DNA of 30,322 bases, from IMG/VR virus record IMGVR_UViG_3300042380_000102, positions 1 through 30,322 of that record. One strand, written 5' to 3'. The notes under the pieces are model-generated. The model did no database searches, was not told the DNA's origin, and saw only the letters and a program-made list of their open reading frames with translations. The DNA is from a virus. The translations under genes and the position numbers were made by a program. Each line of letters begins with the position of its first letter. Position 1 is the stretch's first letter. Shown here piece by piece: positions 2,072 through 28,036 of this stretch.

Positions 2072-2953
2072 ATGTCAAACGAAAATGTCCCTGCTGGTAC
2101 GGTAGCAAGAGAATCTTCCCTCTCTAGTTGGGCGGGAGAACCAGTCACCGGGATGATTGGGCGCGGGCAAGCGCTTTCTCAAACCCCTTACGAAGCCTAT
2201 ACCGGACCACTTACTGCGGGTCCGTCTGGACTGCAGACACAAGCGTTCCAAGGGCTTTCAAGCCTTACGTTGCCGACTGGGACCCAGACTACCTACACCC
2301 CACAGACGTTTACGGCTGAAGCTGCTCAGGGGTACATGAACCCTTATTTGATGTCTGCACTGCAGCCTCAGATTGATGAAGCGCGTAGGCAAGCTGAAAT
2401 CATGCGAACTCAGCAAGCTGGTCGTCTCTCACGTGCTGGTGCGTTTGGTGGCGGTCGGCAAGCCATCATGGAGTCTGAGCTTGGTCGTAACCTAATGCAG
2501 AATCTGGGCAAGATCACTGGCGAAGGGTATAAGAGTGCGTTTGATGTTGCGCAACAGCAGTTTAATACGGAGCAGCAACGCCAAATGCAAGCTGCGCGAC
2601 AGGCTCAACAATATGGGCTTGAAGGTTTAGCTGCGCAGATGGGCGGTGGGGCTACTCAAAGAGATATTGAACAGCAAGGCATAACGTCTGACATTAAACA
2701 GTTTGAAGAAGAGCGCGACTACCCCTACAAGCAAGTGCAGTTCTTGCAGTCACTCTTCCAAGGCATGCCATTGGCCACGACAAATTACCAACAGGCTGAA
2801 GCAAGCGGTCTAGGGCAGTTTGCGTCTGTGTTTACAACTCTTGCTCCATTCTTACAAGCAATGGGTATGTTGCCGAGAAATGCTCCAGCTCCAGCTCCAG
2901 CTCCTGCGCCAACTCCTGCTCCTGCTCCAGCTCCGGCTCCAGCTCCGGGTTAA
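2072..2953 (+). CDS. Putative virion protein with Ala-Pro tail
   Basis: 293 residues. The core (about residues 80-220) is rich in Gln, Ala and Arg with a predicted long helical character (QPQIDEARRQAEIMRTQQAG, then AGAFGGGRQAIMESELGRNL). This resembles internal or ejection-type proteins of podovirus-like phages in general composition. A moderately hydrophobic stretch (LGQFASVFTTLAPFLQAMGM) precedes a C-terminal run of about ten Ala-Pro dipeptides, an extended flexible tail. The start has GAGG 5 nt upstream. It lies 7 nt after the previous stop and 13 nt before the next start, so it is co-transcribed with them. No enzymatic motif is visible and no specific family is claimed. Confidence 0.8.
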   Translation: MSNENVPAGTVARESSLSSWAGEPVTGMIGRGQALSQTPYEAYTGPLTAGPSGLQTQAFQGLSSLTLPTGTQTTYTPQTFTAEAAQGYMNPYLMSALQPQIDEARRQAEIMRTQQAGRLSRAGAFGGGRQAIMESELGRNLMQNLGKITGEGYKSAFDVAQQQFNTEQQRQMQAARQAQQYGLEGLAAQMGGGATQRDIEQQGITSDIKQFEEERDYPYKQVQFLQSLFQGMPLATTNYQQAEASGLGQFASVFTTLAPFLQAMGMLPRNAPAPAPAPAPTPAPAPAPAPAPG

Positions 2954-2966
2954 TTAAGGAATAGCT

Positions 2967-4721
2967 ATGATCGACCAAGCCATTCAATCGCGTCTCGATG
3001 CGTATCGGGGTAACCCCCAGGCGTTGGCTCAGCGTTATCAAATGAGCCAAGATCTTCTAGACCTGTTGGCACTGCAAAAACTTAAGTCTGAAAAAGAAGC
3101 AGCTGCGCGTGAGATGCAGTTGCAGATGGCTCAGCAGCAAGGTCAGCCTCCGACGGTTGCGCAGCAACGTGAGCAAGAGGTCATGAATATGACCAAGCAA
3201 GAGCTTGCGCAGCAGGTAGGCCAAGTTGGTCAGCAGCAATTGCAACAACAGCAAGCAGCACTGCAACGCATGATGGGTGGGCTCGCCGCTGCTCCCGGTG
3301 CGCAAAATGTAATGCCGCCACAAGCGATGGCTGCGGGTGGCATTGTTGCGTTTCAGGAAGGTGGTACCCCTGAAGACATGATGACACGCCCAGGCGAGCG
3401 TGAACTGACTGACGAAGAAAAAGAATACCTTCGCATGTTGGAGGCTGATGAAACGCGTCGGCTTATGGCTCGTTATGCGCGTCCCGAACCGTCTAGTATG
3501 GCTGAACGTGCGCAGCGTCAAAGAGAAGAAAAAGGGTCTATTTACTCCCCAGACTACGGATTAACCCCTTCTGAACGAGCGGCAGCGCAAATGCGCCGTG
3601 GGGAGGGGTTGCCGCAGTTGTTGGAGCGTATGCGTCCGCGTATGCCTTTAGGAACGCAAGTTTCTGAAGCGGCGGGGCAAGCTGCTCAAACATTGCGTGC
3701 CGCCACAGAGAGTCTAGGTCGAACACCAGAAACCGGTGAAATGTCTTACTTCAAACCCGCACAAAGTGCTCCTGCGGGTGCAGCGCAAGCTGGCGTCGGT
3801 ATACAAGCCACGCCCGAAGACCGTGGTGGCGGTGAGGCACCTGCTCCTCGTGAAGCACCTCCAGTTGCGGCGCAACCTACGGCTGCACCTGCTGCCGCTC
3901 AGCCTGCTGGGCTTGATGCACTTCGCACTGCGCTAGCTGAAAAACGTCGCACCTTTGAAGAGATTTACAACGAAGTTAAGGCGCAGTACCCCAACTTGCC
4001 GGAAGAAGAAGTACGCAAAATGGTAGCCAACGTGACGGCTGCTAGAGAACGCGCAACACGACTTCAGCAAGGCCCAGGACTTATGGAGCTTTTGATTGCT
4101 GCAGCTCAAGGTATGGCTGGCAAGCGCCGGGGTCGTGAGTTTGAAGGTAGTGCTGCTGCGCTCAGTCAGTTAACTGCGTCCCGTCGTGCCGAGGCTGAGA
4201 AAGCTGAAGAGATCGCACGTCAGCGTGAAGAAGGGCTTATCAACCTGCTGCAGCGTCAGCGTGAAGCTCAGTTTGGCGCAGCCCAAGGTCGTATGACGGA
4301 AGAGCAACGTGCAGAAACTGCACGGATTGGGGATGCGGTTAGGTTAGCCGGGGTCGATGCTCAAGCTGCAGCTAATGAAGAATCCCGCCTTTACCGCGCT
4401 ATGGCAGCTGCTAACGCCGACTACACCAAAAGAGAAAACGGTTATAGAAACGCGGTTCAGAGTAAAGTTGAACAAGAACAAAAAGCGCGGGCACGGATTG
4501 AAAAGCTCAAAGCTGAGGATATGGATGTTAAGCTTAAGAAACCCGGTGCAGAGGCTAAATATGACACCGCTCTTTCTATAGAGTTGCAAGAAATTGATCG
4601 GGCGTTTGGGCCTATCCTGCGGCGGTATCAGAAAGACCTTGGGTACGAAATGCCGCAGGCACGTACCCCCACTGCCGCTCCAGTTAACACGCAAGGGTTC
4701 CTTCTCAAAAACGTTCGCTAG
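2967..4721 (+). CDS. Putative coiled-coil virion protein
   Basis: 584 residues, dominated by Gln, Ala, Glu and Arg. Residues about 1-120 are strongly helical and Gln-rich (QLQMAQQQGQPPTVAQQREQ). They are followed by AMAAGGIVAFQEGGTPED, an acidic hinge, a Pro/Ala-rich linker around residues 270-320, and a second long coiled coil (about 330-530). No catalytic motif is seen. Length and composition fit an internal or ejection protein, or a scaffold-like protein next to the giant protein downstream. The start follows AAGGA with 7 nt spacing (AAGGAATAGCTATG). The stop is 15 nt before the next start. Specific function is unknown. Confidence 0.8.
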   Translation: MIDQAIQSRLDAYRGNPQALAQRYQMSQDLLDLLALQKLKSEKEAAAREMQLQMAQQQGQPPTVAQQREQEVMNMTKQELAQQVGQVGQQQLQQQQAALQRMMGGLAAAPGAQNVMPPQAMAAGGIVAFQEGGTPEDMMTRPGERELTDEEKEYLRMLEADETRRLMARYARPEPSSMAERAQRQREEKGSIYSPDYGLTPSERAAAQMRRGEGLPQLLERMRPRMPLGTQVSEAAGQAAQTLRAATESLGRTPETGEMSYFKPAQSAPAGAAQAGVGIQATPEDRGGGEAPAPREAPPVAAQPTAAPAAAQPAGLDALRTALAEKRRTFEEIYNEVKAQYPNLPEEEVRKMVANVTAARERATRLQQGPGLMELLIAAAQGMAGKRRGREFEGSAAALSQLTASRRAEAEKAEEIARQREEGLINLLQRQREAQFGAAQGRMTEEQRAETARIGDAVRLAGVDAQAAANEESRLYRAMAAANADYTKRENGYRNAVQSKVEQEQKARARIEKLKAEDMDVKLKKPGAEAKYDTALSIELQEIDRAFGPILRRYQKDLGYEMPQARTPTAAPVNTQGFLLKNVR

Positions 4722-4736
4722 CCTTAAGGTTTCATC

Positions 4737-7700
4737 ATGCCGATCTACACTGTCGAAGGCCCAGATAAGCGTACGTACGAGATCGAAGGCCCAGAGGGCG
4801 CAACTCTTGATCAGCTTGTAGCCGTCATCCAACAGCAAGGGCCTTCTTTCCAAGCGCCTAAGCCGACTGTCGGTGGCTACATTAAAGAAGCTTTGAAAGG
4901 TGTACCGGCGGGGGCGATTGGGTTGCTCGAAACGGCTGCAGTGGGGGCTAGTTCCCTGCTACCTGAAGAGGCTGAGAAAGTCGCCCGCGAGAAGATCCAA
5001 GAAATCGCCGGTGCTGCGCGTAAACCTTTTGAAGCTGCACCAGGGTACGAAGAAACCATACCGCGTAAGGCGGGCGAAGCTGTTGGGTCAACGGGGCCTT
5101 TCTTTGCGGCAGCTCCGTTAGGCTTGGCGGGTCGTGCAGCGATTGGCGCACTTGCATCTGGGGCTGGTGCTGGTGAAGCTCGATTACGCGCTGAAGCAGC
5201 GCAGGCTACCCCCGAGGAACGCGCACAAGCAACTGGGCTTGGTACAGTTGTCGGTATTAGTGAACTACTGGCTCCGTTTGGAGTTGGTAATGTTGTTGGG
5301 CGTGTAAAACGTGCGGCGCTAGCTGGGGGTATTGAAGGCGCTCAGGAAGCCGCTGCTGAAATTGCACAAAATGCGATTGCTCGTGGTGTATATGATCCGA
5401 GCCAGAACATCATCGTTGGTGCTGGAGAAGCGGGTGCGTATGGTGCGGGTGTAGGTGCATTTGTACAAGCCATTCTTGATATGGCGTTACCCGGTCGCGC
5501 TCGCGGCGCTGCTCCGGCGCCAACCCCTGCAGTTTCCCCCACCCCTACACCAGAAGAAGCCGCTACACCTCAGCTAAGCCTGTTTACACCTGAGCAAGCT
5601 CCCGCAATGGAGGCGCCGCCAGAAGTTGTCGAGCGGCAAGAGGCTGAACAAAAAGAAGCCCAGCAGGCTGCGTCTAAGCAGCGCTTGGATGAGCTGCGCA
5701 ATGAATTTGATACGTTGCAGCGTGAAAACGAACGCCTTAAAGCGACGGGTACTGAAGAAGCTCGGGCCGAAGCTGAAAAGATCGCACCTGCACTCAAAGA
5801 TCTACAGACACAGATTAAAGAGACGCAGAAAGAGCTACCAGCGGAAGAACGCGGTCGGCCTGCTGCCCCTGAAGAACAACTCGAATTAGCGTTTGATGAC
5901 CGCATACGCATCCAAGATCTTGTACAGCTTGGCATCCCGATGGAAGGCGGTACACCCGTGCAGGTTGGTGTGCGTGGGTGGCTTCGTGATAATGTTCTAG
6001 GTAAAACGCCAGAGCAGGTTCGTGGGTTAGTTAAGCGCCAGCCAGACCTTGTCAAGGGTGAAGGGCTTCGTGCTCGGGTGATACGTCAGATTGTTACGCC
6101 AGAACCTGCGGCGTATGAGGAGCCACGCCGTGAGCCAAGTGTATCTGGAACTCCCGAGCAAGGAACTCTTGACCTTGGAGGAGTTGAGCCAAGCGTGGAC
6201 GTTCCTAGCGAACCTGCCCGAGTGCGAGGTCGCGCCCGCGAGCGCGTGGTACCCCCCACAGAACCTACAACGGTTGAGCCCACTAGACTGGCGGATATTG
6301 AACCGGATGTTGGAGTTGGAGCTGGAGAACAAGCAGAGCCAACCCCTGCAGTAACGCCCCCGCCTGAGCTTCGTGAAGGTACAAAGAAAGTCCTTGGCGA
6401 TCTGTGGGAAGACTATAAACCCGAGAACGCTCCGACCCTTGATAAGCTGCCAGACTACGTGCAGTCGCAGTGGTTTAATCGTGTATCGGAGTCTATGAAG
6501 CCCGGTGCACGTGGTCTGAGTCTGACTGATACCGAGAAAGTATTTGATAAGGCGCTTGAAAACGTAGGCTACGAGTTGTACAACGCTCGTATGGAGCCTT
6601 CGAAAGATGCCACTCCAGGGCAGTTGTTCCGCACAGACCGAAACGGAAAAGTAGCGCAGGGTATCTATGAGCAGCTAACGCCTGAGGCTCGTGCAGTTGC
6701 GGATGACTACGCGAATAAATACGAAAAAATTGATCGTAAAGATGATCAAATTATTAGAAAAAAAGAAGAAGCCGAAGAAAAACAACGTAAAGCAATAGAA
6801 GCACAGCAACGCAAAGAAGAACGTGAGGCTGCGCAAGAGCGTGAACGTGAATCTAAAAAAGCGGCTAAGCAGGCAGAAGGAAAACGCGGTAAAGCGGTGG
6901 CAGTGCCTGAAGTTGAAGAAGACGTTGAACTTCGTAAAGGCGAACAAGAATTAGTTAGTTTGGTCGAAAAAGCACCCACACGCAAAGAGCGTCGCAAACC
7001 GCTACAACGTGCAGCAGCACCAACTCCTGCACCTGCACCTGCACCCGAAGCCAAAGCTGAGCCGACGCCCGGAGTTTCGTTTATCCAAGGTACGCCTGAA
7101 CAGGTCAAGCAGGCAGAGGCCCACGCTAAAGATCTTGGCGGGAAGGTTGTTGCTCTTGAAGGTGACTACGGTCTCGTTCAGGGGTATTTAAAAGTAAGCG
7201 GGATACCCGCTTATAGCGTTACGTTTGGTAACAATAGATCTAATAACGACATCGACTTTTACACTGGTAAAGGAGTTCCTGCGGATGTCAAAGCTCGTTT
7301 GTCTGCCATAAAGAAGCAGCTTGAAGAAGAGGCTACCGCTAAGCACACCAAAGATCCGTTCATTAAATTTGATGCGGATGGCGTGGCGCTATCTGATGAC
7401 ATACCGGCTGAATACGAGAACATCATCCGCGAGTGGAAGAAGCTGTTAAAGCTTGATGTGCCGATCTACGTCTCTACTATTGAAGACGTACTAAAAAACA
7501 AAGACAACTTCACGGGGCCCCATCGTGCCGTAGGTAGCGGCACTCTTAATCCGTCCGAGGCTGGTTCAACGCGGCAGATGGCGGACGGTAGCCATTACAT
7601 CCTGTTTGAGAAAAGCCCTAAGAAAACTCAGACACTAGAAATACTTGCACATGAGCTTGGGCATGTGCATCAGAAAGTATTTTTTGACAAAGCATCGCGT

Positions 7701-10700
7701 GAAGAAAAAGACGCACTGCATGAAGCACATACAAAGTGGCTAAAGTCCCTCAAAGGTAAAACCGCCCGTGACCTTGTGCAGAGCATGCGGGGCCGCGCAA
7801 CCCAGCGCTTCGTAGAAGGCGATCTCAGCATCCCTGCTGATAAGTTGAACAACTATTGGCGGCTGTTCAGTGAGTGGTACGCAGATCAAACAGCCCGTTG
7901 GGCACTCTCAGCCGACAAGCCGGTAACGATTGTTGAAAAGTTTTTTGCACGTCTCGGGGCTGCACTTCGTAAGTTCTACAACGGACTAAAGGCAAAGGAT
8001 TACCTCCCGAACGAGACGTTCGCCAACTACATCGAGGCTGTTATCGCTCGGCCTGCGGCAGTGAATTTTGCGCCAGACAAAGTTGGTGCAGACGAAGCTG
8101 CGTCACCGATGACCACGCGGGTAAGCTCTGAAGAGCTTGCTGAGTTTGACAAGGGTGCTAATCCCATACCGGGTGGCACAAGCCGCCAGCTTGCGCAAGA
8201 AGCTATCGATAACGTCACAAAGTTCCGCACCATTGTCGCTGACAAAGCCGCAACGGTCAGTGATGCAATCGCTAAAGACTTCAACAAAGGCGCTGAAAGC
8301 GCGATCAAAGATAAGGCCACCGAGGCGGTGTATCGGCAAGCTGAGTCTTCAGACCAGCTTCTACCGGCTGTTTTCCGCTTAGGTGTTGTGCGGCTGGACC
8401 CCAAGACGAAACTCTGGAAGGCAGAATCGGTCAAAGGTATTAAATCTGTACAAGAAATCTTCCAAAACGATATCGCTGAGTGGGGTAAATCCAAAGACAT
8501 GTCGTTTAATGAGGCTTACAACTACGGAAACGAGTTGCTGGCTGCTGCGCGAGAGAATGAGTTCCGCAGGCTGAACAAGACGCAAGAGAAGGGCCGCCTC
8601 TTTCCGGTCAGCATGTCCGATGCGGACATAGATCGTTTGTACGCTGAGTACAAAAAAGACAAGGGCATCCAAACTATCAAAGAGAGCATGGACAAGCTCC
8701 GCTTTGCAAACATCGACAACCTCGTGCGTACTGGTCGTATAACGAAAGAAATGGGCGATGACTGGAAGGCTGCCACCGACTACGTGCCGTTTGATCGTGT
8801 CGAGGATATGGATGCGACCTTCCGTACGCAACGTCGTGTGGGGCGTGGTATCTCGCAACTGGGCACCACGCCAGAACTGGTCAACGCCGCAGCAACCAAG
8901 CGCCCGCCGAAGAATGTATTCGACAACTACATCAACCTCATCGGATGGATGACTCAGCAGACTGTGCGCCAGGACGCTACCCTGCGTACACTTCGCGCTT
9001 TAGAAGACATTGGGCAAGCCAAATACGTCGGGCGCCGTAAACCTGCTGAAGGTGAGAAGTCCGTTAAGGTTTATATAAATGGCGAGGAAGGATTTTTCCT
9101 TACACCTTCTACGTACCATGTGGCGGCGTTTAATACGATGGCTGCACCGACGCTCGGTGTTGTCAAACTGATGAGTCAGTTCTCTCGGGTTCTGCGAACC
9201 GCTATCACAGCGGTGCCTACTTTCACAGCCGCGCAGCTACCCCAGGATATCCAACGTGCCATCATCGCCTCGGGTGTACGCAGCCCAGTTGCGCTAACCG
9301 CCAAAGTCTTAGGTAATTTCAAAGAGTTTGGTAAGGCTGCGGCGTTAGGTAAGCTGGACGATATCACGGGCGATCTACCTGAGTTTGGTGTGCTGGGTGG
9401 GGTTGACTTCCATGTATCGAACCCATCGGAGTCGTTCCTACAGTCGCTCGGGGTTAAAGAACGTACAGCGTTTAAGTCGTCCAAGTTTGGTGAACTACTG
9501 CACCGCCTGCAGGGTATAGCGCTGGCCTCTGATATCGCAGTGCGTAAGGCGATCTACGATCAGACATTAGAAGAGACCCAAGGCGATAAGCTCCTTGCCT
9601 TGCAGCGGGCGCGTGAGATCATCAACTTCCGTCGATACGGTATGGGCGATAAGCTTGGGCTTATCCACTTGGCTACACAAACTGTGCCGTTCTACAACGC
9701 ATACCTGCAAGGTATGGATGTGCTGTATCGAAGCTTGACGGGGAGAGAAGCTCCGTCTGGTCTTGCACGTAACGCAGCCTTGAAGCTCTACTGGACCAAC
9801 ATCGGCTACCTCATGGGGGCTACGGTGCTCTACTCGCTGATGATGGCGGGTGATGATGAGTACGACAACATGGACCCACGTGAGCGCGACAAGACGTGGG
9901 TAATCGGAAACGGAATCGGTATTCCCGTGCCGTCTGAGATTGGTATGATCTTTAAAGCCATTCCTGAGCGTGTGCTGGATTACTACCGCAAAAAAGGCAC
10001 CTCAGATGAGATCGCAGCCACTGAAGCTGTTATTAGCTGGACCAAGGCTGCAGCCAACGAATACTTCGGGCGTACGGTACCTGTGCCGGTTGCGGTTAAG
10101 CCACTGCTTGAGAACTTCGTTAACTACTCGTTCTTCACGGGGCGTTCGTTGGAAGGTATCTTCCAACAGCAGTTGTTGCCAAGCGAGCGTGTAACTTCGC
10201 GTACCTCAGAACTTGCTAAAGAGATTGCCCAGTTCACTGCACAAACGGCTGGAGTTGAGTTATCCCCCATCCAGATTGATAACGTGCTGCGGGGCTATCT
10301 GGGCACCACTGGTGCGTTGACGCTTGCGGTTGCGGATCAACTCATCAAACCCGGCAAGACCGATACGCCTCTGCATCAGATGGTAGGTTTGACTCCGTTT
10401 GCGTACGATCCGGTTGGCACACGTCGCATCAATGAGTTCTACGATCTGCGTGAAAAAGTTGTACAGACGCAGATGTCGCTCAACCAGATGATGAAGAGCA
10501 GCCCGGAACGTGCAGCAGCATTTGCAGATAAGAACGCCAACATCTTAGCTGCCTATAAGATGGTCAACAGCACGCTCAACGAACTTGAGAAGACTCGTGC
10601 CTACAAGCAGTTCTTAGATACAGAAGCGGCTGCGCAGTCGATGGATTCTGCCGAGCGTCTAAAGATGAAGCAGGATGTGCAGAAGTACGAGCAAGAGCTT

Positions 10701-10742
10701 GTTGATTGGGTACGAACCGCCAAGAAGCAGTTGGGTATCTAA
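4737..10742 (+). CDS. Giant 2001-aa internal/ejection-type protein with metallopeptidase motif
   Basis: One uninterrupted 2001-residue frame. In order: a small N-terminal module (MPIYTVEGPDKRTYEIEG) of a type seen at the start of phage internal proteins; glycine/alanine-rich hydrophobic stretches (about 52-66, 105-140, 165-185); a coiled coil (about 297-375); Pro-rich linkers; a highly charged Lys/Glu helix (about 660-725); and a domain with AHELGHVHQ (H972, E973, H976). SEWYAD follows about 70 residues later, with E1046 a plausible third zinc ligand. The C-terminal third (about 1480-1760) has hydrophobic amphipathic segments such as TQTVPFYNAYLQGM and IGYLMGATVLYSLMMAG, reminiscent of the large polyvalent proteins of phages. 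Probable role: a DNA-ejection or host-modifying protein carried in the virion. Protease activity is inferred from the motif only. Confidence 0.8.
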   Translation: MPIYTVEGPDKRTYEIEGPEGATLDQLVAVIQQQGPSFQAPKPTVGGYIKEALKGVPAGAIGLLETAAVGASSLLPEEAEKVAREKIQEIAGAARKPFEAAPGYEETIPRKAGEAVGSTGPFFAAAPLGLAGRAAIGALASGAGAGEARLRAEAAQATPEERAQATGLGTVVGISELLAPFGVGNVVGRVKRAALAGGIEGAQEAAAEIAQNAIARGVYDPSQNIIVGAGEAGAYGAGVGAFVQAILDMALPGRARGAAPAPTPAVSPTPTPEEAATPQLSLFTPEQAPAMEAPPEVVERQEAEQKEAQQAASKQRLDELRNEFDTLQRENERLKATGTEEARAEAEKIAPALKDLQTQIKETQKELPAEERGRPAAPEEQLELAFDDRIRIQDLVQLGIPMEGGTPVQVGVRGWLRDNVLGKTPEQVRGLVKRQPDLVKGEGLRARVIRQIVTPEPAAYEEPRREPSVSGTPEQGTLDLGGVEPSVDVPSEPARVRGRARERVVPPTEPTTVEPTRLADIEPDVGVGAGEQAEPTPAVTPPPELREGTKKVLGDLWEDYKPENAPTLDKLPDYVQSQWFNRVSESMKPGARGLSLTDTEKVFDKALENVGYELYNARMEPSKDATPGQLFRTDRNGKVAQGIYEQLTPEARAVADDYANKYEKIDRKDDQIIRKKEEAEEKQRKAIEAQQRKEEREAAQERERESKKAAKQAEGKRGKAVAVPEVEEDVELRKGEQELVSLVEKAPTRKERRKPLQRAAAPTPAPAPAPEAKAEPTPGVSFIQGTPEQVKQAEAHAKDLGGKVVALEGDYGLVQGYLKVSGIPAYSVTFGNNRSNNDIDFYTGKGVPADVKARLSAIKKQLEEEATAKHTKDPFIKFDADGVALSDDIPAEYENIIREWKKLLKLDVPIYVSTIEDVLKNKDNFTGPHRAVGSGTLNPSEAGSTRQMADGSHYILFEKSPKKTQTLEILAHELGHVHQKVFFDKASREEKDALHEAHTKWLKSLKGKTARDLVQSMRGRATQRFVEGDLSIPADKLNNYWRLFSEWYADQTARWALSADKPVTIVEKFFARLGAALRKFYNGLKAKDYLPNETFANYIEAVIARPAAVNFAPDKVGADEAASPMTTRVSSEELAEFDKGANPIPGGTSRQLAQEAIDNVTKFRTIVADKAATVSDAIAKDFNKGAESAIKDKATEAVYRQAESSDQLLPAVFRLGVVRLDPKTKLWKAESVKGIKSVQEIFQNDIAEWGKSKDMSFNEAYNYGNELLAAARENEFRRLNKTQEKGRLFPVSMSDADIDRLYAEYKKDKGIQTIKESMDKLRFANIDNLVRTGRITKEMGDDWKAATDYVPFDRVEDMDATFRTQRRVGRGISQLGTTPELVNAAATKRPPKNVFDNYINLIGWMTQQTVRQDATLRTLRALEDIGQAKYVGRRKPAEGEKSVKVYINGEEGFFLTPSTYHVAAFNTMAAPTLGVVKLMSQFSRVLRTAITAVPTFTAAQLPQDIQRAIIASGVRSPVALTAKVLGNFKEFGKAAALGKLDDITGDLPEFGVLGGVDFHVSNPSESFLQSLGVKERTAFKSSKFGELLHRLQGIALASDIAVRKAIYDQTLEETQGDKLLALQRAREIINFRRYGMGDKLGLIHLATQTVPFYNAYLQGMDVLYRSLTGREAPSGLARNAALKLYWTNIGYLMGATVLYSLMMAGDDEYDNMDPRERDKTWVIGNGIGIPVPSEIGMIFKAIPERVLDYYRKKGTSDEIAATEAVISWTKAAANEYFGRTVPVPVAVKPLLENFVNYSFFTGRSLEGIFQQQLLPSERVTSRTSELAKEIAQFTAQTAGVELSPIQIDNVLRGYLGTTGALTLAVADQLIKPGKTDTPLHQMVGLTPFAYDPVGTRRINEFYDLREKVVQTQMSLNQMMKSSPERAAAFADKNANILAAYKMVNSTLNELEKTRAYKQFLDTEAAAQSMDSAERLKMKQDVQKYEQELVDWVRTAKKQLGI

Positions 10743-17234: not shown

Positions 17235-17486
17235 CTACTTCATGCCTGCACTGCGGGTACGTGCAAAACTTCGATTCGTGCCTTTTGCTACTGCCTTCAG
17301 ATTGCCACGCGTAGTAGCTCCGCCCTTGGCGAGCGGCGTCTTATGGTCAACATCCTTACCATCACCCTTACGCACCGCGCCTTCCTTAGTCAGCATGCGA
17401 CGCGCTTTGTTGCGCTCAGCGCGTTTGCGTTTCTGCTCTGGGGTGCCTTGGTAGTTGTCGTACTCAACTCGGTAGTTGCGTGTCAT
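17235..17486 (-). CDS. Small HNH family protein
   Basis: 83 residues. A very basic N-terminal half (GTPEQKRKRAERNKARRML) precedes GKDVDHKTPLAKGG, then GNLKAVAKGTNRSF, which together give the DH...N...N pattern of compact HNH nucleases. Proteins with this architecture recur in phage replication regions; the family memory is mine, not a search. AGGTGA lies just before the ATG. The start is only 3 nt past the stop of the Cas4-like nuclease gene, so the two are co-translated. It ends just before the terminator. Likely a DNA nickase or endonuclease. Confidence 0.8.
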   Translation of the reverse strand: MTRNYRVEYDNYQGTPEQKRKRAERNKARRMLTKEGAVRKGDGKDVDHKTPLAKGGATTRGNLKAVAKGTNRSFARTRSAGMK

Positions 17487-18158: not shown

Positions 18159-20891
18159 TTAGCAATCCCCGTATGATGCACCCCACCCAGACTCACACGC
18201 AAGCGGAAGTGTCGGTGCCCAGATCGGACGCCATGACATGCACTCTTCCACGTACCGAATGGCTTCCTCACGCTCTGCTTCGGGAGCCACACATGCGACA
18301 GCATCATGCACCGTGAGCACCACCTTGTACCGCCGTGAGATACGCAACATCTGTTCAGCCACGATACATCGAGCGATTGCCTGAGTGAAGTTTTCGACGC
18401 ATTTGCCCCCGTAGACATCAACTGTAAGACCTCGTGAGTCATACACCCACCGTGCGTTGCCATCCTTAACTTCTTGCCGCAGGTTGGGGTACTGGATATG
18501 TAACCCGCTTGGAAGCGTAAGCCCCACCCCCGGCACAACTTGCACTATCCCATGCACATCCACTGCGAACGGCATCTGAGCAGCCAGCATAGCGAGTGAT
18601 GTATCAGCCTTCTTCCACAGCTCCGGTATGCGGGCATATGTACGCCGATAGGTCTCTACTATGCGTTTGGCTTCCGCTTCATCGACCTCTACACCTGCGC
18701 CGGTTTTGAGAAAGAGTTTTAATTTGTTATGGCCGACGCCGTAGCCACAATTTGAGACGAGTCTGCCTGACACCGTAAAACGATGGCGGGGTCCGGCATT
18801 GAGTAAGTCCCATACACGCCTTTTGGCTTGCATGATGGGGCGTTCCACCTCGCCACTATCTCCTCGTCGGTCATTTTGGAGATTAGCTGTCGCAGTGTGG
18901 AGTCGGCGTAGCGCACTTCTGGGTGTCGTGCCTTGAACTCGTGAAAGCGAATCACATGTTTCGTTGCTCTTGTATGTGACTTGTTCTCCCTGCCTGTGGC
19001 CCACACTAAATTCCCCGGTTCGTAATGCCCGTTCGTGTTTATCCGATCCAACTCCAGTTCTTTGTGTAGGCCCAAGTTCTGCATTATCCAAAGGCCCGCT
19101 TCTTTCACCGACGAAAAGCGAAACTCTATCCCCCTGCCCCCGTAATGCTTCCAATTCATATGGTTCGGGTTTGTGCAGCGCTGTTTCATGTCGGTAACTC
19201 GTTTGTCCAACCAAGCCGGTAGCGTTCTCGGTTGGCTGCATTTTTGGCAACCTTTCGTCAAACCCCGTCGAGCGTTCGTTAGGTTCAACCATTTCTCGGT
19301 CATGCAGGTCGTGCATTTCACTCGGATGTGCACGAGGTTCTTCACTCCTAACCGATGAACTTCGGTCGAGATTATTTCCACCATGCCGAAGCGGTACCCC
19401 ACCATCTCCGGTGTGAGCGATACTAAGACTTTTTTCGGCGGCAACGTCGAATCGGCACGTACTTCCGTCTTGTAAATACACGATATGGTCTGGGGTTGCG
19501 GTGAGCGAATCATAAATTAGTACCTCCTGTTCACCTTGGTAAATTGGGCCTTCATGAGATACCCATTCTATCCCATCCCATACCCGCATACTAGTGGTTA
19601 CTTTCTCGATAGGTACTAGCCCGACATCTGTCAGTACAAGTTCGCCCTCAGCGATACACCCAAGAACCGTCGTTTTCCCAATGAACCTCTGGGCAGGTGT
19701 AATCTGATCCGGCGCCACCCCATAGATGTGCGAAGCCATGATGCGATACACATCCTGCTTATTCTCAAACGCATCCAGAAGATCCTGCTGACCAGCCAAC
19801 CAAGCCAACGTACGCGCTTCGATCTGCGAGGAGTCACAGTCGATGATGATGTAACCCGGCGGGGCTTTGATGGCTTTCTTGATCTTGCCTGCCTGTGAGC
19901 CCCGTGACGGTAGATTTTGCAGATTAACGGAATCTTGCCCGGACCAACGCCCAGAGTGTGCCCCGTAATACCGCAGTGGGATTGGGAACTTGCCCCGGTA
20001 TGACATATCGATGAACCGCTCAGTGCGGGTTTCTTCAAGCGTAGACTTCACGCCAAGCCGCGCCGCAACAATCGCTTGCACCTCAAGGTTCTCGTGCTCA
20101 AGAAGATCTTTGAACGCTTCGTCCGTCTTCGCAAATGCGTACGTCTCTTTGCCTGTCGTTGGGCTTATTTTTGTCGGCGGCTCCACCCCACGCTCACGTA
20201 GCATCTCAGCCAACTGCGGATTACTCATCAGCCGGGACTTATCTTCGGTACTTAGCTTGCTGAGTAGCGCTTCCTTCTGTGCTTTAACAGATAGCAAGTG
20301 GTCTTGTAAGTGCTCACGATCAAGCTCAAGCACAGGGTCTATGAACATCCGCAACGTCAGATCGATAAGCCGCAACTCACGCAGGGAGAAGGTCTCCATG
20401 TAACGTGTAAACAACGTATGCGTCAGATTCACATCGTTTATGCAGTAGGCGCCGTAACGCGCCAACTCTTCAGGCGTGAAGTCCTCATAACGCTTACCCA
20501 AGGCTGCGATTACCTCATCACCTTTCTGACCAACCCCCGCTCTCTCAGCCTGAGACTTGAGACTGTGGCTCTTCTCATGTGGGTACAAAGCGCGGGACAT
20601 ACCCATGATGTCAACCCATGCCTTGGGGTCCACGCCGTAGTGCCACTTGAGGATGGCGCCGTCAAACATCGTGTTCTGAGCAACGACAAGGCTTTGACTC
20701 CATACGATGCTCTTCAGAGCCTCCTCAACCTGCGGGCGTGGGTACCAGCGGGTCTCACCATTATTTACTTTGATGGCTACGCCGATGGTTTGAAACTTCG
20801 GATCACGGATGTAATGTTCAGTGGTAATTTTTGACAGCGAATACTCGCGGTCGTAGTAAGTTTCAAGATCCAACACCACTACATCCGTCAT
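18159..20891 (-). CDS. Family A DNA polymerase with in-frame intein
   Basis: 910-residue precursor, about 607 residues after removal of the intein (412-714). A 3'-5' exonuclease domain is complete: VLDLETYYD (D8, E10), QNTMFDG, and YCINDVNLT. Polymerase motif A is IIIDCDSSQIEAR. Motif B is split: QRFIGKTTVLG, then after the intein CGYGVGHNK, giving R-x3-K-x4-G-x2-YG when joined. Motif C is TVHDAVACV, with Ala where HDE is usual. There is no 5' nuclease domain, as is usual for phage enzymes. The start overlaps the VRR-NUC stop (ATGA), with GAGG upstream. It is the replicative polymerase of the operon. Activity should need protein splicing, since the intein sits inside the O-helix. Confidence 0.95.
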   Translation of the reverse strand: MTDVVVLDLETYYDREYSLSKITTEHYIRDPKFQTIGVAIKVNNGETRWYPRPQVEEALKSIVWSQSLVVAQNTMFDGAILKWHYGVDPKAWVDIMGMSRALYPHEKSHSLKSQAERAGVGQKGDEVIAALGKRYEDFTPEELARYGAYCINDVNLTHTLFTRYMETFSLRELRLIDLTLRMFIDPVLELDREHLQDHLLSVKAQKEALLSKLSTEDKSRLMSNPQLAEMLRERGVEPPTKISPTTGKETYAFAKTDEAFKDLLEHENLEVQAIVAARLGVKSTLEETRTERFIDMSYRGKFPIPLRYYGAHSGRWSGQDSVNLQNLPSRGSQAGKIKKAIKAPPGYIIIDCDSSQIEARTLAWLAGQQDLLDAFENKQDVYRIMASHIYGVAPDQITPAQRFIGKTTVLGCIAEGELVLTDVGLVPIEKVTTSMRVWDGIEWVSHEGPIYQGEQEVLIYDSLTATPDHIVYLQDGSTCRFDVAAEKSLSIAHTGDGGVPLRHGGNNLDRSSSVRSEEPRAHPSEMHDLHDREMVEPNERSTGFDERLPKMQPTENATGLVGQTSYRHETALHKPEPYELEALRGQGDRVSLFVGERSGPLDNAELGPTQRTGVGSDKHERALRTGEFSVGHRQGEQVTYKSNETCDSLSRVQGTTPRSALRRLHTATANLQNDRRGDSGEVERPIMQAKRRVWDLLNAGPRHRFTVSGRLVSNCGYGVGHNKLKLFLKTGAGVEVDEAEAKRIVETYRRTYARIPELWKKADTSLAMLAAQMPFAVDVHGIVQVVPGVGLTLPSGLHIQYPNLRQEVKDGNARWVYDSRGLTVDVYGGKCVENFTQAIARCIVAEQMLRISRRYKVVLTVHDAVACVAPEAEREEAIRYVEECMSWRPIWAPTLPLACESGWGASYGDC
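18719..19513 (-). CDS. Out-of-frame HNH endonuclease nested in the intein
   Basis: 264 residues read in a different frame of the same strand as the polymerase. It starts at an ATG with AGGAGG 9 nt upstream. Residues 67-92 carry a four-cysteine zinc-finger pattern (CTTC, then CQKC). Residues 101-173 form a recognisable phage-type HNH domain: DMKQRCTNPNHMNWKHYGG, then LELDRINTNGHYEPGN and LVWATGREN. The usual first His of the HNH is Arg or Asp-like here (LDRIN), as in many phage HNH proteins. The last residues (about 254-264) and the TAA come from polymerase codons downstream of the splice site. Likely a homing endonuclease for the intein; target unknown. Confidence 0.88.
   Translation of the reverse strand: MIRSPQPQTISCIYKTEVRADSTLPPKKVLVSLTPEMVGYRFGMVEIISTEVHRLGVKNLVHIRVKCTTCMTEKWLNLTNARRGLTKGCQKCSQPRTLPAWLDKRVTDMKQRCTNPNHMNWKHYGGRGIEFRFSSVKEAGLWIMQNLGLHKELELDRINTNGHYEPGNLVWATGRENKSHTRATKHVIRFHEFKARHPEVRYADSTLRQLISKMTDEEIVARWNAPSCKPKGVYGTYSMPDPAIVLRCQADSSQIVATASAITN
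18750..19658 (-). other. Intein in the polymerase O-helix
   Basis: Polymerase residues 412-714 (303 residues). Block A begins at C412 (CIAEGELVLTDVGLVPIEKV). Block B is LTATPDHIVY with T466-x2-H469. Block F is VWDLLNAGPRHRFTV (D695, H703). Block G is GRLVSN followed by C715, with the essential N714. The penultimate residue is Ser713 rather than His. The ends fit a class 1 cis-splicing intein. The stretch between blocks B and F (about 480-690) has no in-frame endonuclease domain. It is very polar and charged, because that DNA is also read out of frame as an HNH gene. Confidence 0.92.
19522..19528 (-). promoter_or_regulatory. Strong internal ribosome-binding site for the nested HNH gene
   Basis: AGGAGGT on the - strand, 8 nt before the ATG at 19513. 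In the polymerase frame the same bases encode Gln-Glu-Val of the intein segment YQGEQEVLIYDS between blocks A and B. It is one of the best matches to the Shine-Dalgarno consensus in the window. Confidence 0.8.
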
Positions 20892-26678: not shown

Positions 26679-27848
26679 TTACTCCTCAATGTTTAATGTC
26701 ACACCGTACGGTGCACGGTTCTTACCCAACACAGCCCACAGCGTGGGCCAGTCCGACCTACCCCACTCGTTACCCACATCACCATCCGTCAGCACGACGA
26801 CAGCCTGGGGGCTCATGCGCTTCTCACGCAGATAGTCAAACACCACATCCACGCGTGTCCCCCCGCCACCTGTCGGCTTCACGTTTGCAACTGCGAACTG
26901 TCCGTTCTCAAACACCTGATCACCCGACACTGCCGTGTCCCAATACAGCACACGCACACGCTCAGGGTTTACCTGCTCGATCACACCAGCAAGCTCACTG
27001 ACGAACCGAGTCATGATGCCGGTACCGAAGCACGACCCTGATGTGTCGATAGCCACGACAAGCTCACCCATGCGATAGCCAACCATGCTAGGCATCAGCA
27101 CGTCGTTACTTATGTACCGTCGGTTCACTTTGCGCCACGAGGACTCCTCACGCCCACCGCATAGCTCCTGTATGAAGTCCCGCAGTGCTTCACGCCAGTT
27201 CACTTTCGGGTTGAGCAACGCATCGATAACACCTGGGGTCTTACCCGCCCCATCACGTGAGCGTTGTTGCCTGACGATCTCACCTTGGCGCAGTAACCGC
27301 CCCACCTCATCGACAAGGGCTTGACTCTCACTACTGCTTCGCCCCTCGGCACCACTGGTGTCATGCTCATCGAACCCCTGACCATCACCACTACCGTTAC
27401 CACCTTTATCCGGCGGAGGGTTCTGCTTGAGGTCTTCGTAAATCTTCCCCACTGACCAGCCCCGGTACTTGTCATCGGGCGGGATGCCAACCTCGGGCAT
27501 GCGAATAAACCCCTCACCCGCATCGGTATCGACGAGCGATAAATTTACGAACAAATCAGCGGCCACATTCGCAAGCTTGCGATCCTCTTCGAACAGATGA
27601 CGCCATACATCCAGCTGTGTGTAGGCTACGTGGGTAGCCTCGTGCAGAATTACGAAGCGTAGTTCCTCATCCGTCAGCTTCGCTACGAACTTCTCCCCGT
27701 AGATCTTATTGACACCGTCCGTGCATGCGGTGGGTATGTCGTCTCGCACCTCAGTGCGCCCCATCGCAACAACTGGCCCCATCACACACCACATCTTGTG
27801 GTGCATGATCTTCACGTGTTGGCGTCGTATACGTTCTAACTGATTCAT
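26679..27848 (-). CDS. Metallopeptidase/VWA-like protein (DUF2201 type)
   Basis: 389 residues from the ATG at 27848, which has CAGGAG upstream and overlaps the previous stop (ATGA). An upstream extension of 35 residues lies in the previous gene and is dropped. The N-terminal domain holds RFVILHEATHVAYTQ, an HExxH zinc site (H69, E70, H73). A Gly/Asp-rich linker (about 145-180) leads to a von Willebrand factor A-like domain with the MIDAS motif VVAIDTSGSC (D268, S270, S272) and VVVLTDGDVG. This two-domain layout is that of DUF2201 proteins, which pair with MoxR AAA+ ATPases. It is probably the partner of the MoxR gene just upstream; substrate unknown. Confidence 0.88.
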   Translation of the reverse strand: MNQLERIRRQHVKIMHHKMWCVMGPVVAMGRTEVRDDIPTACTDGVNKIYGEKFVAKLTDEELRFVILHEATHVAYTQLDVWRHLFEEDRKLANVAADLFVNLSLVDTDAGEGFIRMPEVGIPPDDKYRGWSVGKIYEDLKQNPPPDKGGNGSGDGQGFDEHDTSGAEGRSSSESQALVDEVGRLLRQGEIVRQQRSRDGAGKTPGVIDALLNPKVNWREALRDFIQELCGGREESSWRKVNRRYISNDVLMPSMVGYRMGELVVAIDTSGSCFGTGIMTRFVSELAGVIEQVNPERVRVLYWDTAVSGDQVFENGQFAVANVKPTGGGGTRVDVVFDYLREKRMSPQAVVVLTDGDVGNEWGRSDWPTLWAVLGKNRAPYGVTLNIEE

Positions 27849-28036
27849 GCTTCGCTCCTGAGTTTCCTGCGGTTGGTTAAGTCTTTTATCGCTTGCTTCT
27901 GCATGCGCTCCTCGACCGAGGAGAGTGTGTATCGCTTCATGGGTGGCACCCATGCGTACCCGATCCTGCCGGGGTGCCAGTCTTTACGTAGGCGCACCAC
28001 TGTGCGCCCGTCCTCTGTTCGTTCGGTCACTAGCAT
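27845..28036 (-). CDS. Small hypothetical protein
   Basis: 63 residues, with GAGGA before the ATG. Sequence: MLVTERTEDGRTVVRLRKDW, then HPGRIGYAWVPPMKRYTLSS. Basic with a Pro/Trp centre. It lies between the ATPase and metallopeptidase/VWA genes with a 7-nt gap and a 4-nt overlap, so it is co-translated with them. Function unknown. Confidence 0.7.
   Translation of the reverse strand: MLVTERTEDGRTVVRLRKDWHPGRIGYAWVPPMKRYTLSSVEERMQKQAIKDLTNRRKLRSEA

Follow-up and report, generated by a model that had tools for sequence, protein, structure and literature searches.

A 30,322-nucleotide stretch of viral DNA (IMG/VR record IMGVR_UViG_3300042380_000102, positions 1 to 30,322; hereafter, the window) encodes a family-A DNA polymerase whose gene contains an intein. 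On the same strand, but shifted by one base relative to the polymerase frame, the intein also contains an open reading frame (ORF) for a zinc-finger/HNH endonuclease. We propose that the intein is mobile and carries its homing nuclease as an overprinted gene, not as an in-frame fusion, and that two products would be made from one mRNA. We put the probability of this reading at roughly 85%. A prediction made earlier from the sequence alone had claimed an intein with splicing blocks and no in-frame endonuclease, on which our alignments, Pfam and PHROGs searches, and AlphaFold models agree. It had also described a 264-residue zinc-finger plus HNH ORF with its own ATG and an upstream AGGAGG, and both the coordinates and the description were correct.

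The polymerase ORF (18159-20891, 910 amino acids; this gene and everything within it is on the minus strand) matches Pfam DNA_pol_A (4.7e-32) and phrog_17. The intein (18750-19658, 303 amino acids, polymerase residues 412-714) sits between Gly411 and the Cys of KTTVLG/CGYGVG (the slash marks the insertion point), as delimited by alignment with relatives, by empty sites, and by a structure model. All the splicing blocks are present: a start of CIAEGELVLTDVGLVPI, block B (TATPDH), VWDLLNAGP..RF, and an end of VWDLLNAGPRHRFTVSGRLVSN followed by the extein Cys. Across 47 aligned inteins, C1, T55, H58 (the TxxH of block B), D284, and G289 are invariant and N303 is nearly so. The insertion is precise: 55 relatives have an uninterrupted site at this conserved position of the polymerase, and TVLG/CGYGVG is intact in the closest intein-less relatives (loci L002-L004, 79-75% identical; L numbers denote retrieved loci).

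The AlphaFold model of the intein (47 sequences) contains a confident HINT mini-intein made from its two ends. These are residues 1-83 (19410-19658, with Cys1 and block B; the predicted local distance difference test score, pLDDT, is about 97 over residues 1-80) and residues 272-303 (18750-18845, VWDLLNAGP..RFTVSGRLVSN; pLDDT 83-97). The stretch of about 190 residues that joins them (residues 84-271, 18846-19409) is open in the host frame but disordered and without secondary structure (pLDDT mostly about 38-57). In Foldseek, the best match, which covers the two ends, was the NpuDnaE intein 4kl5 (E = 2e-4, probability 1.00), and other mini-inteins matched too. Thus, both the predicted fold and the residues (C1, T55xxH58, and N303 followed by Cys) are those of a class 1 intein. 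A canonical intein has its endonuclease in the host frame, but Pfam and PHROGs searches of the in-frame spacer found no endonuclease domain, and the HNH lies at +1. Pfam did not recognise the intein itself; the only database matches were to PHROG_26005, a family without an assigned function, and, weakly, to inteins in the PDB.

The HNH ORF (18719-19513, 264 amino acids, ATG at 19513) matches the phage HNH families phrog_374 (2.9e-22) and phrog_3377 (3.2e-19), as the original prediction would have it. In 42 aligned relatives, the zinc-finger cysteines C67, C70, C89, and C92 (19238-19315) are invariant. The HNH core (residues 107-182, 18968-19195; KQRCTNP..YGGRGI..LDRINTNGHYEPGN..EN..H) is delimited by the PHROG matches, pLDDT, and invariant residues; D156, R157, Y164, G167, and N168 do not vary and Asn177 hardly does. 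A structure model from 42 sequences is confident over residues 31-225 (most of 31-230 is at pLDDT 84-98) with both tails loose, and the loose tails are the parts that are encoded over the intein's own conserved blocks. A PDB sequence search with the HNH profile gave no match. The ORF overruns the 3' end of the intein by 31 nucleotides (18719-18749) and takes its TAA stop from C-extein codons. As the last HNH codons and the stop are supplied by the polymerase, the C-terminal tail of the nuclease depends on the insertion site.

Selection acts very differently on the two frames. In independent pairs of relatives, the pooled omega (dN/dS) in the overlap is 0.23 for the HNH frame (95% bootstrap interval 0.21-0.25) and 1.27 for the host frame (1.12-1.41). 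As a control, in the flanking exteins omega is 0.25 for the real frame and 1.15 for a phantom +1 frame. So, in the middle of the overlap, the HNH frame looks like a gene and the host frame looks like an empty frame that is merely free of stops. At the ends of the overlap, where the first 30 and final ~25 HNH codons coincide with the intein blocks, the roles are reversed: omega is 0.39 and 0.34 for the host frame and 0.61 and 0.54 for the HNH frame. The intein is constrained at its two ends only. (These are simple counting estimates, and synonymous distances are saturated in some pairs.) In close pairs (3-12% different), HNH omega is below 0.4 in all, and host-frame omega scatters from 0.06 to 2.0 because the counts are small. 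Of the constraint on both frames that an overlapping gene pair would show, the HNH frame has its share, though relaxed at the ends, and the host frame excludes stops and is constrained at the ends but not in the amino acids of the middle; that part is essentially a stop-free spacer and not a second working protein.

The absence of stops from the host frame is itself selected. We kept the HNH protein and redrew its synonymous codons with the polymerase's own codon usage. For the window's copy, this gave 12.7 expected host-frame stops versus none seen, and 0 of 400 redraws were stop-free. For 76 elements at +1, 974 stops were expected and none was observed, and for seven elements at +2, 34 were expected and none was observed. 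In a +1 element, a host-frame stop needs a T at the third position of an HNH codon, so synonymous choices suffice to avoid every one of them and leave the nuclease unchanged, which would explain why +1 predominates. Indeed, in the +1 elements, 0 of 1535 HNH codons that end in T or C and precede AA, AG, or GA have the T, as compared to 49% elsewhere. In the +2 elements, Met never precedes a codon that begins with A.

The original prediction suggested looking for the same overlap in related phages, and it turned up dozens of times in phages and prophages. Our search used one set of profiles for the intein's two ends and another for the HNH protein, and we counted as a distinct element any locus with both intein ends in one ORF and an overlapping HNH ORF. 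Among the loci fetched up to that point, there were 87 distinct elements with a nested, out-of-frame HNH: 79 at +1, 8 at +2, and none in frame. In a second retrieval with the intein profile, which favours full-length relatives and found some contigs again, all 78 complete elements were at +1. The elements come from cultivated phages (of Gardnerella, Streptococcus, and Shewanella, as well as APSE and Salmonella Jerseyvirus), from viral contigs, and from contigs of bacterial genomes (prophages) of several phyla; a plasmid search gave only distant HNH matches. The insertions lie in genes for family-A polymerases, where several sites are used, and for SF2 or SNF2-type helicases, and one element (L184, 2502-4886) lies inside a host gene without a Pfam match. 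Two polymerase genes carry two overprinted elements each (L207, 3712-4491 and 5023-5919; L215, 2954-3817 and 4178-4963), and the two in L215 differ in register, one at +2 and the other at +1. Many public annotations of polymerases contain a second, unannotated nuclease gene.

The start of the HNH ORF looks like a site of internal initiation. The window has a Shine-Dalgarno sequence, AGGAGGT (19522-19528), with 9 nucleotides between AGGAGG and the HNH ATG. Among the elements that start at the window's position, 42 of 42 have ATG, and in 40 of 42 a Shine-Dalgarno sequence matches over 5 or more nucleotides at the usual distance; the background is 6.7% of 1142 out-of-frame ATGs in exteins. In these main-clade elements, the overlap also starts at a constant distance (145 nucleotides) from the codon for the intein's Cys1. 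The start site suggests that the HNH protein can be expressed independently of splicing.

The HNH tree gives some indication of how these elements arose. The +2 elements form a single clade. The +1 elements form a main clade (the window, with polymerase and helicase sites) and a second group (at the GGK/C polymerase site and in SNF2 helicases) that lies among free-standing HNH genes. It is likely that inteins have captured HNH genes at least three times, as judged from a tree whose deep branches are weakly supported. On this tree the out-of-frame state is ancient and shared, and hence does not reflect a recent indel. Some rows of the main clade had seemed to be free HNH genes, but these were duplicates, truncated loci, or a case with a broken host frame (L190). 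The three observations that the original prediction said would speak against it thus turned out otherwise: the HNH frame is open and not interrupted by stops in the 87 elements, it is constrained, and its out-of-frame state is not the work of a recent indel.

The nuclease can be lost. L084 has a nonsense codon in the HNH with the polymerase frame still open; L091 and L178 have an internal in-frame deletion in the HNH that keeps the host frame; and the Ruminococcus phages NatCom_29429 and NatCom_23091 (L088 and L089) have 140-amino-acid mini-inteins, at the same polymerase site, with no HNH region. The prediction that retention of the nuclease is tied to retention of polymerase codons is borne out for frame-shifting indels and for host-frame stops, but not for losses of these other kinds. 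At another polymerase site, L064, L070, L204, L205, L209, L211-L213, and L221 have split inteins with an HNH gene between the halves, and these genes form one HNH clade.

We propose that ribosomes that initiate at the polymerase ATG would make a precursor, consisting of polymerase, a minimal HINT intein with a long disordered loop, and the remaining polymerase. Given its intact catalytic residues and fold, the intein probably excises itself and joins the polymerase. Internal initiation at the AGGAGG-ATG, just ahead of the block-B codons, would yield a free zinc-finger/HNH nuclease from a frame shifted by one base; both the start site and the pattern of selection point to this product. The nuclease would then cut polA alleles that lack the intein, and the element would be copied into them. 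Homing is suggested by the protein's family, by the empty sites in relatives, and by recurrence in other genes, and the patchy distribution of the element would fit it as well. Selection maintains the HNH protein sequence in the middle, the intein sequence at the ends, and, in the host frame across the middle, nothing but the lack of stops.

Several points weigh against this proposal. First, what the analysis shows is the two frames and the selection on them, the start signal, the two predicted folds, and the empty sites; that the intein splices, that the nuclease is translated, and that it cuts and drives homing are steps that we infer. Second, by our own reading of the correspondence, the position of the first classical HNH histidine is an arginine (DRI) in all 42 aligned proteins, so cleavage is assumed from membership in the family. 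Third, Foldseek with the HNH model found no significant match to a solved structure. Fourth, the penultimate residue of the intein is Ser (VSN), where His is usual; Ser is also found in some relatives. Fifth, part of the Shine-Dalgarno signal may stem from conserved intein residues that are encoded there (the control, HNH-less relatives, has n = 2). Finally, the closest HNH relative of the window's copy is about 51% identical to it, so the selection figures describe relatives and not this exact copy.

The most credible alternative, which we still consider rather unlikely, is that the element has two independent parts: an intein that is immobile or moves by itself, and a nested HNH gene for which the intein is just a safe landing site and whose product cuts elsewhere. 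HNH clades have become nested in inteins more than once, which implies that the two can combine afresh, and inteins without an HNH exist. However, the constant 145 nucleotides between the Cys1 codon and the start of the overlap suggest that, in the main clade, the pair travels as one unit.

Another possibility is that the HNH protein exists but has a role other than homing (it might be a regulator, a splicing helper, or a packaging factor), with the intein being fixed. Some HNH proteins do serve in phage packaging, and the first classical HNH histidine reads as arginine in this family, for which cleavage is a prediction. This explanation seems unlikely because the element is patchily present, with empty sites in close relatives, and because related elements occur in different genes and at different sites. 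Also, the loss of the HNH from inteins that persist fits a homing cycle.

It is more doubtful still that programmed ribosomal frameshifting, and not internal initiation, produces the HNH, as a fusion to the N-terminal part of the intein. The two frames do overlap on one mRNA, and frameshifting is common in phages. However, the window's HNH frame is closed by a TAA (19517-19519) one codon before the ATG, which argues against a fusion, and in most relatives the HNH frame likewise becomes open no more than a few codons from the start. The strong enrichment of Shine-Dalgarno sequences at the start also speaks for initiation there (no systematic search for slippery sites was made).

Finally, although in-frame fusion is the textbook arrangement, we give almost no credence to the idea that indels recently threw an in-frame intein endonuclease out of frame and left the HNH frame as a decaying relic, as no element has the HNH in frame, the frame is under purifying selection and usually has its own Shine-Dalgarno and ATG, host-frame stops are absent, the +2 members are a single clade, and the +1 members are deep and widespread. 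A recent frameshift or a sequencing error is ruled out by the number of out-of-frame elements, the absence of stops, and the purifying selection.

Returning to the overprinted homing intein, how general is it? We lean slightly towards the view that these elements represent a large, undescribed class of mobile inteins, of several origins, in which the nuclease is always overprinted and never fused and the host frame serves as a stop-free spacer. The +1 register would be favoured because synonymous choices can avoid every stop there, unlike at +2, and loss of the nuclease would lead to mini-inteins or split inteins. A long overlapping gene pair is replicated here dozens of times in nature, so that constraint can be measured for each frame.

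Elsewhere in the window, an 83-amino-acid ORF with an HNH-like pattern, DVDHKTPLAKGGATTRGNL, adjoins an exonuclease gene (17235-17486, minus strand; phrog_4590) and appears to be an ordinary free-standing HNH-like gene. A 424-amino-acid protein (26679-27953, minus strand) matches phrog_1314, which is annotated as an HNH endonuclease (5.7e-78), and a 2001-amino-acid protein (4737-10742, plus strand) has a large polyvalent protein domain (LPD38).

The original prediction knew of no described example of this arrangement. This does not hold for related arrangements. The nearest published case is the ShiLan domain, in which an insertion with an HNH read out of frame leaves its host gene open; homing was inferred for it, and the Pacc40 insertion is similar (Arsenault, Gosselin and Gogarten 2025, PMC11855218). 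Its authors reported no intein splicing domain and no Shine-Dalgarno sequence, and they proposed that the protein retains the insertion and that initiation is leaderless (PMC11855218). The window's element is alike in that an HNH is read out of frame inside an insertion that keeps the host gene open, but it has a HINT intein and a strong Shine-Dalgarno sequence, and elements like it are in polymerases and helicases; it is not a ShiLan domain. For overlapping frames, the same paper cites "Actinobacteriophage Inteins: ... Non-Canonical Architecture" (10.1101/2025.01.02.630785) and Gorbalenya's "Non-canonical inteins" (1998). For an HNH overprinted in an intein, the prediction's statement stands in that our search of the open-access literature found no description, and priority is uncertain.

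Phage APSE-1 (NC_000935, L093) is a member of the same architecture: its P45 DNA polymerase bears an intein, and a nested HNH gene, APSE-1_46, is annotated at +1. It differs in its insertion site and HNH clade, and it is annotated from an inner ATG only. (RefSeq places the nested HNH at 2919-3341, but the frame as read in this family continues upstream as far as a GTG at 2691.) We found no paper in the open-access literature that interprets this overlap. In Jerseyvirus (Salmonella phages such as vB_SenS-Ent3), the polymerase intein is annotated and an HNH ORF lies in another frame, but the HNH is unannotated, is at +2, and belongs to a separate clade. For Jerseyvirus (L097, L100, and related), 264 phage records match the polymerase intein region and 163 cover most of it. 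The +2 HNH ORF was present in both of the records that we read, and the two HNH copies compared have an omega of 0.12, which indicates purifying selection.

Canonical inteins such as PI-SceI also have an endonuclease gene between the N- and C-terminal parts of a HINT domain, but theirs is in frame and is spliced out within the intein, whereas the window's would be a separate product from another frame. In the fractured genes of Dassa et al. (2009), an endonuclease gene reportedly lies between the halves of a split intein, a form that L064, L070, L204, L209, L211, and L221 share, with an HNH gene; in contrast, the window's intein is in one piece and encloses all but 31 nucleotides of the HNH ORF. 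The Ruminococcus phage mini-inteins belong to the same intein family and occupy the same polymerase site but are 140 amino acids long and lack the HNH region. With these HNH-less relatives and the split ones, the order of events in intein evolution becomes testable. Inteins are known to carry a homing nuclease fused in frame or as a free-standing gene that lies between split halves; overprinting would be a third way, and one that separates expression of the nuclease from splicing.

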